From assembly GCF_900086705.1 (NCBI RefSeq), contig NZ_LT575483.1:373166-437165 (forward strand): a stretch of DNA of 64,000 bases, in the 5' to 3' direction. The notes under the pieces are model-generated. The model was not told where the DNA came from. It worked only from the letters and a program-made list of their open reading frames with translations, and made no database searches. Both the position numbers and the translations under genes were made by a program. The stretch's first letter is position 1. Each line of letters opens with the position of its first letter. The stretch comes from Massilibacillus massiliensis. GTDB lineage: Bacteria; Bacillota; Negativicutes; FLKF01. Positions 34,796 to 38,353 of the stretch are shown in pieces.

Positions 34796-35161
34796 TTAAT
34801 TGCCGCTTTGAGAAGCAAAGTATACTTCTTCAGGCACAATCATCCCCAAGTTTGACATCGCCATATTTTTAATACGTTGTGGCGATTTTAATTTTGCATT
34901 TTCAAGCTTTAAACGTTCATTTTCACTTTCTAGTTGTGTAGCTTGAGATTTTACTTGAACTAAAGCATACCCTTTACTTACAATCATCTCGCTTCTAATC
35001 GTAGTAAACATAGCTAGAGCGGCAAAAACAGCAATTAAGATAAAACATCTTTTACGCAGTTTTCTATCAACTTGCGGTATGCTTATGGCAGCTTGATCTT
35101 GCGTTGGTTGTTCTTCATATATTTCAAACTCATCAAACTCAAGTTTTCTTTTTGCTAACAT
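34796..35161 (-). CDS. ftsL: Cell division protein FtsL-like
   Basis: This 121-aa bitopic protein has an acidic cytoplasmic N-terminus (~38 residues), one transmembrane segment (~40-57) and an extracytoplasmic leucine-zipper coiled coil (~68-95) ending LGMIVPEEVYF. This is the septum-formation-initiator layout. Location between rsmH and the septal PBP gene is diagnostic. Sequence conservation in this family is low, so identity rests on architecture and context. The start ATG has AGGAGG upstream. Confidence 0.87.
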   Translation of the reverse strand: MLAKRKLEFDEFEIYEEQPTQDQAAISIPQVDRKLRKRCFILIAVFAALAMFTTIRSEMIVSKGYALVQVKSQATQLESENERLKLENAKLKSPQRIKNMAMSNLGMIVPEEVYFASQSGN

Positions 35162-35202: not shown

Positions 35203-36144
35203 TTATAACTTTTCCGCTACTCTTAGCTTCGCACTGCGAGCACGCGGATTTTCATCTAACTCACTCACTGAAGCCACCATAGGCTTACCAATCACTCTGA
35301 TTTCTGCTTTATGATTACATATACATACCGGTAGTCTCGGAGGGCAAATACACCCTTTTGCTAAGGTTTGCAATGTTTGCTTTGCGATTCGATCCTCTAA
35401 CGAGTGAAAAGTTATAATGCAAATTCTCCCACCAACATTCAAATGTGCAACGGCAGTTTTGAATGCATCTTCCAGTATACCAAGTTCATTATTTACCTCT
35501 ATTCGAATTGCTTGAAAAGTTCTTTTGGCAGGATGTCCACCTTCTTTTCTTGCCCCTGCAGGTACAGCCTTCTTGATAATATCGACCAACTCACCAGTAG
35601 TATGAATTGCGCCATTCACCCTAGTTTCAATCATAAATTTGGCAATTCGTTTAGCCCAACGTTCTTCACCATACTTATAAATGATATTCGTAAGCTCCTC
35701 TTCACTATAAGTATTTACCACATCAAACGCAGATAACCCAGCTTGCGTGTCCATTCTCATATCTAATGGAGCATCTTGCATATAAGAAAAGCCTCGCTTT
35801 GCTACATCAAGCTGATGCGAAGAAACCCCTAAATCAAATAAAACACCATCAACCTTTTCAACGCCTAGATCCCCTAAAACCCGATGCAGTGCATTAAAAT
35901 TTTGATTTACAATATCTACTCTACATCTTGCCCCAGCAAGCCTTTCTTTTCCGACAGTAATCGCCGCCGGATCTTGATCAATTCCGATAAATCGCCCTTT
36001 CGGACTCAATCGATCAATCACACGCCTTGCATGTCCACTGCCGCCTAAAGTACAATCCACATAAACACCATCTATATTCGTCACTAGTGCATTGATGGTT
36101 TCTTCCATTAAAACACTGATATGATGAAAGTCCAAAAGTAACAT
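35203..36144 (-). CDS. rsmH: 16S rRNA (cytosine1402-N4)-methyltransferase RsmH
   Basis: RsmH (MraW) N4-methylates C1402 in the 16S P-site. The ~313-aa protein has FHHISVLMEE at its N-terminus, the SAM-binding segment VDCTLGGSGHA, the FDLGVSSHQLD motif, and RTFQAIRIEVNNE and ITFHSLEDRI near the C-terminus. The start is uncertain. The ATG at 36144 is very close to GAGGGG. A TTG at 36135 is 10 bases from it and gives the common family start 'MDFHHISVL'. It is the first gene of the dcw cluster; no mraZ precedes it. Confidence 0.95.
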   Translation of the reverse strand: MLLLDFHHISVLMEETINALVTNIDGVYVDCTLGGSGHARRVIDRLSPKGRFIGIDQDPAAITVGKERLAGARCRVDIVNQNFNALHRVLGDLGVEKVDGVLFDLGVSSHQLDVAKRGFSYMQDAPLDMRMDTQAGLSAFDVVNTYSEEELTNIIYKYGEERWAKRIAKFMIETRVNGAIHTTGELVDIIKKAVPAGARKEGGHPAKRTFQAIRIEVNNELGILEDAFKTAVAHLNVGGRICIITFHSLEDRIAKQTLQTLAKGCICPPRLPVCICNHKAEIRVIGKPMVASVSELDENPRARSAKLRVAEKL

Positions 36145-36174
36145 TCCCCTCAATTCAATCAATTACTACATCAT

Positions 36175-36218
36175 AGTATTGCAAAATATCAAATAAAATT
36201 TACATAAATAGCAATACT
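36175..36218. repeat. Inverted repeat upstream of rsmH
   Basis: AGTATTGC (36175-36182) and GCAATACT (36211-36218) are 8-base complementary arms 28 bases apart, in the AT-rich region where the dcw promoter must lie. Possibly an operator; chance is not excluded at this length. Confidence 0.35.
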
Positions 36219-36239
36219 TTTATTATTTTATTTCTTATC

Positions 36240-36268
36240 AAAAAATCCTCTTTTTTTCTGGATTTTTT
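36240..36268 (-). terminator. Terminator after the deacetylase gene
   Basis: AAAAAATCC and GGATTTTTT form a 9-pair stem with an 11-base A-rich loop, with T-runs on the plus-strand side and a short one on the minus side. It separates the deacetylase gene (stop at 36310) from rsmH, so the dcw cluster needs a promoter below it. Confidence 0.62.
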
Positions 36269-36309
36269 TTTATTTTTTTATAGAATAAGTCATTATACCT
36301 AGATATCTA

Positions 36310-37116
36310 TTAACTTTTAATCCATCCTAGCCGCTCTAATAAAGGTATGTATTGAATTCTTTGACAAAAACTTTTAAAAGTTTGTTCCGTATGAAAAATA
36401 GGCACGCGCTCTAAAGCGTAAATATTGCTAGCTTTATCAACATTACCATATTTTATGGTGAATGCAGCTTTATATCCAGCTTCCTTAACAAATTGTGCAA
36501 TTTTTAAATTGTAAGTACCCGTCGGATACGCAAAATAGCTAACCTTTTTACCAAGTTGATATTCCAACGCCTGTGCTGATCCTATCAACTCTTTTCTTAT
36601 TTCTTCTTCTTTTATCTCAGTTAAAGATTTATGCTGCATCGTATGTGAACCGATGGAAAATCCAGAATCTGATAATTCACGTACCTGATCCCATGTCATA
36701 AATCTCGGATCAGAACTAATAAAATCAGTTACAACAAATATCGTTGCTGTAAAACCATATTTTTTCAAAATCGGATATGCATTTGTATAATTATCTAAAT
36801 AGCCGTCATCAAAAGTAATGATCAATGGTTTATCTGGTAGAGAAGTTCCATTTTCTAAATTATCGATCAATTGATCCGGGGTAATCGTAGAATACCCTTC
36901 TTCTTTTAAATAAGCCATTTGCTCATCAAAATCTTTTGGATTTACCGATAAAGAAATATTCATATTATCTACTTTATGATAATTTAAAACAACCACTTTT
37001 GTATCATTTTTACATGGTTCCATGTATTTTGCATCCATTGATTTTGGCGCTGAAAGCACGATTGGCAAAACAACTAACATACCAATCAGCAGAATATATT
37101 TGTAAGAATACTTCAT
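36310..37116 (-). CDS. Polysaccharide deacetylase (NodB/CE4 family)
   Basis: This 268-aa secreted or membrane-anchored hydrolase has a basic N-terminus and hydrophobic segment (residues ~5-22), then a CE4 domain. NYHKV lies early, TFDDGYLDNYTNAYPIL carries the metal-binding DD pair, SHTMQHKSL supplies the H-x3-H ligands, and FAYPTG follows. CE4 enzymes N-deacetylate peptidoglycan or other GlcNAc polymers; which one here cannot be read. The ATG at 37114-37116 has AAGGAG nine bases upstream. It directly follows the Lgt-like gene and is probably co-transcribed with it. Confidence 0.88.
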   Translation of the reverse strand: MKYSYKYILLIGMLVVLPIVLSAPKSMDAKYMEPCKNDTKVVVLNYHKVDNMNISLSVNPKDFDEQMAYLKEEGYSTITPDQLIDNLENGTSLPDKPLIITFDDGYLDNYTNAYPILKKYGFTATIFVVTDFISSDPRFMTWDQVRELSDSGFSIGSHTMQHKSLTEIKEEEIRKELIGSAQALEYQLGKKVSYFAYPTGTYNLKIAQFVKEAGYKAAFTIKYGNVDKASNIYALERVPIFHTEQTFKSFCQRIQYIPLLERLGWIKS

Positions 37117-37141
37117 TTTGAACTGCTCCTTCTTATACACT

Positions 37142-37945
37142 TTATACCCTAAAAATATTTTTTATCATGAAATTATATGGCACAAATTTTCTTAACAAAT
37201 ACAATCCACTACAAAATATAAATCCGCCTAAACTAAAAACTTGCCCTAAATGTAATTGCATTCCAGTCTGTATCGACAAATAAAAAAAACCAAATAAAAA
37301 TCTACCCAAACAAACTAAACTCATCCCAATTAAAAATATATTTCCCGCTAAAATGCTATGATTTTTGATTTGAATCCAGGTAAGTATGCTAATAATTAGA
37401 AACGTAACAAATTGCCATATCGATTGATATAAGGCAACTGGAGTAAAATATTCATACTGTTCAAAACCTGCCGGTCTAAAAGCATATTCAATATATTCTA
37501 CAATTTTTCCGTCATCCGGCATACCAACCACAGTTTGAAGAACAAAATTTCCTAGCTGTACAATTGCAAGTCCTAATACAAAGGCTGGCACTAAACGATC
37601 TAGCCAACTCCATAAAGACACATTCACAATTTTTGTATAAAAATATAATACGCAAAGAAAACCTAAAAAAGCTCCATAAATTGAAAATCCACCACGGGTT
37701 AAAGAAAAAACTTCAACGAACTTCCCAGCATATAAGTGCCAATGCAAAACAACATAAAAAATACGCGAAAAAATAAGACCGACTGGTAATCCCCATAGCA
37801 ATAAATCAAGAACTGGCTCAAATCTTTCATGACGAAAAAACAACACCAATCGTGTGATAGCCATTCCTGCTAAAATTGCCATACTGAGCATAAAACCATA
37901 CCAATAAAAATTTAAATTTCCTATTGAAAACGCAATAATCCCCAT
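37142..37945 (-). CDS. Divergent Lgt-family membrane protein lacking catalytic residues
   Basis: This 267-aa protein of about seven transmembrane helices shows the prolipoprotein diacylglyceryl transferase (Lgt) layout. FYWYGFML stands for the usual RWYG segment. RGGFSIYGAFLG (84-95) stands for GGLSFHG, with the essential His replaced by Tyr. QLGNF (130-134) stands for RxGNF, with Arg replaced by Gln. TPVALYQ stands for HPSQLYE. GRFLFGFFY near the end lacks the final Glu of RFxxE. It is therefore probably not a working Lgt and may do something else with the deacetylase encoded just downstream. A true lgt would have to be elsewhere. Assignment to the superfamily is by motif alignment from memory. 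Confidence 0.72.
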   Translation of the reverse strand: MGIIAFSIGNLNFYWYGFMLSMAILAGMAITRLVLFFRHERFEPVLDLLLWGLPVGLIFSRIFYVVLHWHLYAGKFVEVFSLTRGGFSIYGAFLGFLCVLYFYTKIVNVSLWSWLDRLVPAFVLGLAIVQLGNFVLQTVVGMPDDGKIVEYIEYAFRPAGFEQYEYFTPVALYQSIWQFVTFLIISILTWIQIKNHSILAGNIFLIGMSLVCLGRFLFGFFYLSIQTGMQLHLGQVFSLGGFIFCSGLYLLRKFVPYNFMIKNIFRV

Positions 37946-38105: not shown

Positions 38106-38300
38106 ATGACTATAACAAAAGAAATGGGTATCCTTGAAGTAGTTCAAAAATATCCGCAAACTGTTGAAGTATTTCAAAATGCTGGTATGGGCTGCCTAGG
38201 TTGCGCTGCCGCTCGTTTTGAAAATATCGAGCAAGGTGCTGGAGCACATGGTATTGATATAGATAAGCTCATTGAAAACTTAAATAAAGTAGTGGAATAA
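38106..38300 (+). CDS. DUF1858 redox-disulfide domain protein
   Basis: This is the only plus-strand gene in the window: 64 aa, forming a single DUF1858 domain. It has the MGCLGCAAARFE motif with C30-L-G-C33, as seen in proteins associated with hybrid-cluster enzymes and other anaerobic redox systems. The pattern of a short helix, CxxC and two helices (GIDIDKLIENLNKVV) matches the family, whose function is unknown. The start ATG has AAGGAG upstream. It has its own extended -10 promoter and converges on proS through a shared terminator. Confidence 0.85.
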   Translation: MTITKEMGILEVVQKYPQTVEVFQNAGMGCLGCAAARFENIEQGAGAHGIDIDKLIENLNKVVE

Positions 38301-38321: not shown

Positions 38322-38353
38322 AAGGGAGCATACCATTTTTGGTATGCTCCCTT
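38322..38353. terminator. Convergent bidirectional terminator
   Basis: AAGGGAGCATACCA and TGGTATGCTCCCTT form a perfect 14-pair stem with a 4-base loop. It lies 21 bases after the DUF1858 stop and 7 bases after the proS stop, with T-rich tails on both sides, and so can end both transcripts. Confidence 0.88.

Follow-up and report, generated by a model that had tools for sequence, protein, structure and literature searches.

The window, a stretch of 64,000 nucleotides from the genome of Massilibacillus massiliensis, comes from a member of the Negativicutes, a diderm class related to clostridia. It carries a gene for an Lgt-family membrane protein, here called lgt3, followed on the same strand by a CE4 polysaccharide deacetylase gene and the start of the dcw cluster; the features considered are listed below, with positions 103 to 243 numbered as in E. 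coli Lgt.

37142..37945, minus strand: lgt3, encoding a 267-aa Lgt-family protein with seven transmembrane segments and without Arg143 (PF01790 match and alignment to E. coli Lgt)
37676..37678, minus strand: Tyr90 codon, at the site of His103 (alignment; Tyr in 32 of 33 subtype B proteins)
37556..37558, minus strand: Gln130 codon, at the site of the catalytic Arg143 (alignment to E. coli Lgt)
37424..37426, minus strand: Gln174 codon, at the site of Glu202 (alignment; Gln in all 33 subtype B proteins)
37301..37303, minus strand: Arg215 codon, equivalent to the conserved Arg239 (alignment)
37289..37291, minus strand: Gly219 codon, at the site of Glu243 (alignment)
36310..37116, minus strand: CE4 polysaccharide deacetylase with an N-terminal membrane anchor (PF01522; ATG start, with an in-frame GTG at 37140)
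37042..37065, minus strand: P-x5-P-K motif of the CE4 anchor (PIVLSAPK; positions 26-33 with the GTG as residue 1), which accompanies subtype B lgt3
36802..36816, minus strand: CE4 catalytic motif TFDDG, conserved in the orthologue alignment
35203..36162, minus strand: rsmH (mraW), where the dcw cluster starts here; a conserved downstream neighbour (neighbourhood table)
34796..35161, minus strand: ftsL-like gene, also a conserved downstream neighbour (neighbourhood table)
38106..38300, plus strand: small gene of 64 aa, divergent from lgt3, DUF1858-like by eye (read from the sequence)

The lgt3 product matched the LGT family profile PF01790 (E=1.1e-37; 130.1 bits, cut-off 24.9) and fell below the cut-off of the Lgt equivalog TIGR00544 (88.3 versus 118.9 bits). 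Its AlphaFold model, whose confidence was medium (pLDDT 66.6, built from 5 sequences), had E. coli Lgt (5azb) as its sole significant solved fold (Foldseek E=2.3e-5, probability 1.00, TM 0.59), which together with the profile match bears out the Lgt fold proposed in a first-pass annotation of the sequence. Alignment to E. coli Lgt revealed replacement of His103 by Tyr90, Gly142 by Val129, Arg143 by Gln130, Asn149 by Leu136, Glu151 by Thr138, Glu202 by Gln174, Tyr235 by Val211, Glu243 by Gly219 and Arg246 by Tyr222; the signature GRxGNFxNxE has thus lost its arginine, and the hydrogen-bond network Tyr235/Glu243/Arg246 has been replaced throughout by Val211, Gly219 and Tyr222. Conversely, Tyr26, Arg73, Gly98, Gly99, Gly104, Asp129, Asn146, Gly154 and Arg239 (Arg215) are retained. 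Since the flanking Asn146, Gly154 and Arg239, among others, are kept in place, and no arginine lies at or beside position 143, the missing residues have not merely shifted in the alignment; the Gln in place of Arg in RxGNF and the absent final Glu of RFxxE, both noted in the first pass, are real, and against a solved Lgt the absence of Arg143 and several other residues is genuine.

Published mutagenesis indicates how much weight each of these changes can bear. The E. coli variants R143A, R143E and R143K are inactive, as are variants changed at R246 and most of those changed at Tyr235 (PMC4728403); Gln was not among the substitutions tried at position 143 (A, E and K only; PMC4728403). Glu243 is essential according to PMC4728403, and E243A complements according to PMC13251419. 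As E202Q keeps good activity (PMC4728403) and Firmicutes Lgt normally have Tyr at 103 (PMC13251419), the changes at His103 and Glu202 are not diagnostic; Tyr90 in the GGxSxHG loop and Gln174 in the LYE motif are present as first described, but they do not mark a lost activity. Most weight therefore falls on the missing Arg143 and on the substitutions at 235 and 246, which are the telling losses.

The genome (4.0 Mb, 98% complete) holds two further PF01790 genes, which rules out the possibility that lgt3 is its only lgt: L001 (G000:C6:3523109-3523840), located after a glmS-like gene, and L002 (G000:C6:523724-524464). Both carry Arg143, Arg239, Glu243 and Arg246, and both have Gln, not His, at 103, where E. 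coli has the essential His103; we refer to this canonical form as the Gln103 type. The L002 type was near-universal in the class (354 of 379 genomes, and 227 of the 234 good ones). At least one PF01790 gene besides lgt3 was found in 42 of 44 genomes with lgt3; the exceptions were G278 and G315, the latter an 87% complete genome whose sole Lgt is a basal lgt3 that keeps Arg143.

A search of the class detected lgt3 in 62 of 380 genomes. In a tree of 93 proteins, lgt3 formed one clade (support 91); clostridial and three chloroflexal Lgt fell on its side of the tree, E. coli Lgt and the Gln103 type on the other (94). The G315 protein, with identities of up to 57% to Lgt from other classes in the phylum, branched first; Arg143 was lost across the rest of the clade, whose branch after G315 had a support of 99. 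In subtype A, which comprises family f25 and others, the remaining residues were mostly kept, and subtype B (33 rows, support 100, a long branch), which includes the window protein, lost most of them. This pattern suggests that lgt3 would be the inherited Bacillota-type Lgt of the Negativicutes, and that the Gln103 type would have taken over the work of lipoprotein lipidation from it.

Could Lgt3, even with Arg143 gone, have kept an Lgt function, be it weak or restricted to special prolipoproteins? The common fold and family, the retained Tyr26, Asn146, Gly154 and Arg239, a Gln at 143 that lies outside the E. coli mutant set, and the Lgt-like proteins of other phyla that are devoid of Arg143 and Arg239 and suspected of acting on other substrates (PMC13251419) would all fit such an activity. 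We nevertheless consider it highly improbable, given that several of the changes that individually inactivate the E. coli enzyme are combined in this protein, that another Lgt is present in the genome, and that the score stays under the equivalog cut-off.

Within subtype B, position 143 is variable (Q in 14, E in 13 and others in 6 of the 33 rows), and the subtype has invariant residues of its own: Tyr14, Ser88 and Gln174 in 33 of 33, Tyr90 and Tyr222 in 32 of 33. Between close lgt3 pairs dN/dS ranged from 0.05 to 0.39, and no internal stop was present in any listed lgt3 orthologue. The invariant residues and the low dN/dS values show that subtype B is not drifting freely; lgt3 is under purifying selection. 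Furthermore, the altered-Lgt pattern recurs in dozens of genomes and is therefore not a product of chance.

The neighbouring gene was assigned to the CE4 family by its match to PF01522 (E=2.8e-33; 114.9 bits, cut-off 23.1), with 6dq3 as its closest solved relative (E=1.6e-28). The motifs TFDDG, HTxxH and AYP are invariant across the family, the catalytic motifs are intact in the window protein, and the catalytic D111/D112 and H166/H170 are shared by 95% or more of 45 orthologues. The protein scored below all equivalog cut-offs, including that of PgaB (TIGR03938; 122.3 versus 321.9 bits). It shares the CE4 fold and the catalytic Asp/His motifs with PgaB/IcaB and PdaA (PF01522), but unlike them it heads the dcw cluster and has no pga/ica genes among its neighbours. 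The gap to lgt3 is 25 bases, as first described, when translation starts at the ATG at 37116, a start supported by a GGAG ribosome-binding site, and 1 base when it starts at the first in-frame GTG at 37140. The first-pass description as a secreted deacetylase holds for the deacetylase, by profile and motifs; by eye, the N-terminus has no obvious signal-peptidase site, and the protein looks membrane-anchored rather than freely secreted.

The pairing of the two genes proved to be conserved in relatives, with the CE4 gene downstream of lgt3 on the same strand in 52 of 56 distinct orthologues examined; the four exceptions (G141-G144) belong to one genus, in which the CE4 gene is located elsewhere. 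In genus g50 (L110, L111, L112, L113) the CE4 gene has moved away from lgt3, with neither gene nor the anchor motif lost. A YbaK-like gene sometimes lies between the two. The pair heads the dcw cluster, and in most loci mraZ, rsmH, ftsL and further dcw genes follow; mraZ is absent between CE4 and rsmH in the window (36163-36309), and likewise in the loci of G089, G135, G136 and G318. No CE4 gene adjoined lgt in 19 clostridial loci. Across the 380 genomes of the class search, CE4 was present in 273, including all 62 lgt3 genomes; it occurs without lgt3 in most genomes, so the lgt3 partner is dispensable for CE4, and lgt3 without CE4 was not seen. A mirror-tree comparison gave a partial r of 0.69 for lgt3-CE4 given rsmH, a value that is not specific to this pair because lgt3-ftsL was nearly as high (0.62).

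Comparison of the CE4 N-termini revealed the motif P-x5-P-[KRHS] where the single membrane anchor ends. It was present in 33 of 33 CE4 proteins from genomes with subtype B lgt3, four unlinked ones among them, and in 1 of 48 from genomes in which the absence of lgt3 was verified by profile search, counts that are post hoc in part of the data since the motif was spotted during this comparison. The one exception, G140, keeps the motif without lgt3 and belongs to the same genus as G141-G144. Mapped onto the CE4 catalytic-domain tree, the presence of lgt3 changes about 11 times; of the independent pairs on the best tree, 10 of 11 agreed, none disagreed and one tied (sign test P=0.002), a P value that is not firm because strong branch support underlies only two of the 11 pairs, of which one agrees and one ties. 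With the pattern fixed, 20 held-out, previously unseen loci showed the motif in 4 of 4 with lgt3 and 0 of 16 without, these loci being kin of the first set and hence not fully independent. The contrast was confined to few positions: among 77 CE4 columns at least 97% conserved with lgt3, 62 stayed at or above 90% without it and only the anchor residue Pro26 dropped below 30%, the next-largest contrasts being Ser31 and the C-terminal tail (274, 276, 270). Identity barely moved in the CE4 domain, which thus stayed conserved (0.69 with lgt3, 0.65 without it), and dropped from 0.38 to 0.23 in the anchor. The contrast was not seen in subtype A, where lgt3-less genomes are few.

Damage at the gene junction was considered as a cause of the anchor change; this reading is weakened by G141-G144, which keep the motif although their genes are unlinked, and by G256, G247 and G258, whose CE4 genes are collinear with those of lgt3-bearing kin yet encode SGQK in place of SSPK. 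A broader alternative is that lgt3 and CE4 are merely co-regulated in the wall cluster and that the motif reflects some other difference between lineages. The small number of pairs on strongly supported branches, the lgt3-ftsL distance correlation and the frequent occurrence of CE4 without lgt3 are in its favour; the agreement among independent pairs on the best tree, the held-out loci, the motif kept in G141-G144 and the restriction of the change to anchor and tail speak against it, and we accord it a slim chance.

A diverged lgt3 hidden upstream of every lone CE4 gene was sought in 20 and then 40 loci, and only genus g56 was positive. Here diverged genes (L151:784-1512, L146:851-1570 and L175:511-1233) adjoin CE4, with spacings of 2 and -4 bases in the two loci measured; their products are 19-21% identical to the window protein and have lost the GGxSxYG loop, and the CE4 proteins of this genus have lost the anchor motif too. 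Such joint divergence would be expected if the subtype B protein packs against the CE4 anchor and tail, and g56 possibly represents the end stage of the lgt3 series. A profile search of 55 genomes returned otherwise canonical Lgt copies only, bar one weak, unlinked match in G114 (G114:C34:2606-3205; E=2e-11), a genome without lgt3 in which the match lies away from CE4.

The g56 genes also bear on the idea that lgt3 is a dispensable relic, slowly decaying and retained by a transcribed cluster. Their extreme divergence, the long branches, the clean absences and the roughly 11 presence changes on the CE4 tree are what a relic would leave; this reading is decidedly unlikely in view of dN/dS values well below 1, the stop-free listed orthologues, the newly invariant residues, and an anchor motif that goes along with lgt3 in G141-G144 too, despite the unlinked genes.

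The explanation we favour, with belief and doubt in about equal measure, is that Lgt3 may be a membrane pseudoenzyme partner of a CE4 envelope-glycan deacetylase and not a prolipoprotein diacylglyceryl transferase. A fuller scenario, towards which we are slightly more sceptical than convinced, is that a lipid transferase displaced by a second Lgt type became a dedicated non-catalytic partner, holding CE4 through the transmembrane anchor of the latter where the wall is built, and that the intermediates are still alive: Arg143 is present in G315, lost in subtype A, lost together with most other residues in subtype B, and only a remnant persists in g56. After its replacement by the Gln103 type, lgt3 would have lost Arg143 and, in subtype B, also His103, Glu151, Tyr235, Glu243 and Arg246. 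The seven-helix body of Lgt3 would then bind the single CE4 anchor, and probably the C-terminal tail, so as to hold, position or stabilise CE4 on the outer (periplasmic) side of the inner membrane; there CE4 would deacetylate peptidoglycan, as its dcw position suggests, or another envelope glycan. Homology, the missing residues, the further Lgt copies, the conserved operon, purifying selection and the tie between lgt3 and the anchor motif are established here; the loss of diacylglyceryl transfer, the physical binding of Lgt3 to CE4 and the CE4 substrate are points that we infer. The original observation of an altered Lgt beside a deacetylase is confirmed; its proposed recruitment to envelope or polysaccharide modification is partly supported, strong as an association, strengthened by the anchor result and unproven as a function. 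The three checks set out in the first pass (a further lgt in the genome, alignment to a solved Lgt, pairing in relatives) all came out in its favour.

The main rival to a non-catalytic partner is an enzyme of changed chemistry, because new polar residues (Gln174, Tyr90, Tyr222, Tyr14, Ser88) are invariant at the old cavity positions. Such an enzyme would bind phosphatidylglycerol or another lipid and transfer a group to, or cleave a lipid for, the glycan whose amine CE4 exposes; the retained Arg239, Asn146, Tyr26 and GG-S-YG loop and the conserved deacetylase pairing are consistent with it. We regard it as unlikely, though worth serious attention, as the Arg143 position varies within subtype B, no known catalytic set is recognisable, the g56 proteins without the GGxSxYG loop still adjoin CE4, and the CE4 contrast affects the anchor and tail and spares the surroundings of the active site.

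Compared with known systems, Lgt3 has the family, fold, GG-loop, Tyr26, Asn146, Gly154 and Arg239 in common with Lgt (PF01790, TIGR00544; E. coli 5azb/5azc), but is without Arg143, Glu151, Tyr235, Glu243 and Arg246, is additional to other Lgt genes and adjoins CE4. An Lgt-like subgroup without Arg143 and Arg239 has been described in Deinococci, Acidimicrobiales, Anaerolineales, Acidobacteriales and Myxococcales, with another substrate or mechanism suggested (PMC13251419); it resembles Lgt3 in the loss of Arg143, whereas most members of the Negativicutes group keep Arg239, and the group has CE4 as a partner, none being named for that subgroup. The second Lgt of M. smegmatis, MSMEG_5408 (Y26H, N146C), is presumed to have low activity, as cited in PMC13251419; in that account it is, like lgt3, a second copy with altered conserved residues alongside a working one, but different residues are changed and no deacetylase pairing is reported there. 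In Sporomusa ovata, G230E in Lgt2, treated as an ordinary Lgt, was one of the mutations shared by two independent methanol-adapted cultures (PMC4632017). When a fitting start codon is taken for the numbering, residue 230 is Gly in 9 of 9 f25 lgt3 proteins examined, while the Gln103 type has Lys or Ala there, so that Lgt2, judged from this one residue number, is probably a subtype A lgt3; G230E may thus be the first phenotype lead for lgt3. Our literature search, which lay largely outside subscription journals, found no publication describing a pseudo-Lgt/CE4 pair.

Lgt has been put forward as a drug target, and which of its residues are catalytic is still under debate; a natural sequence of losses that begins with Arg143 and extends to other residues, beside a working copy, helps to separate catalytic residues from those for fold or lipid binding. 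Proteins such as Lgt3, which match PF01790 well, would be annotated as Lgt though they are probably not, and this label can lead predictions about lipoprotein processing and about essentiality astray. Should the partnership be real, it would tie a membrane pseudoenzyme to glycan deacetylation in diderm Firmicutes.

On the other side of lgt3, small open reading frames occupy the site of the 38106..38300 gene in many relatives (neighbourhood table). Between this plus-strand gene and proS, a terminator-like perfect 14-bp stem with a loop of 4 is located at 38322-38353, T-rich on the plus side.
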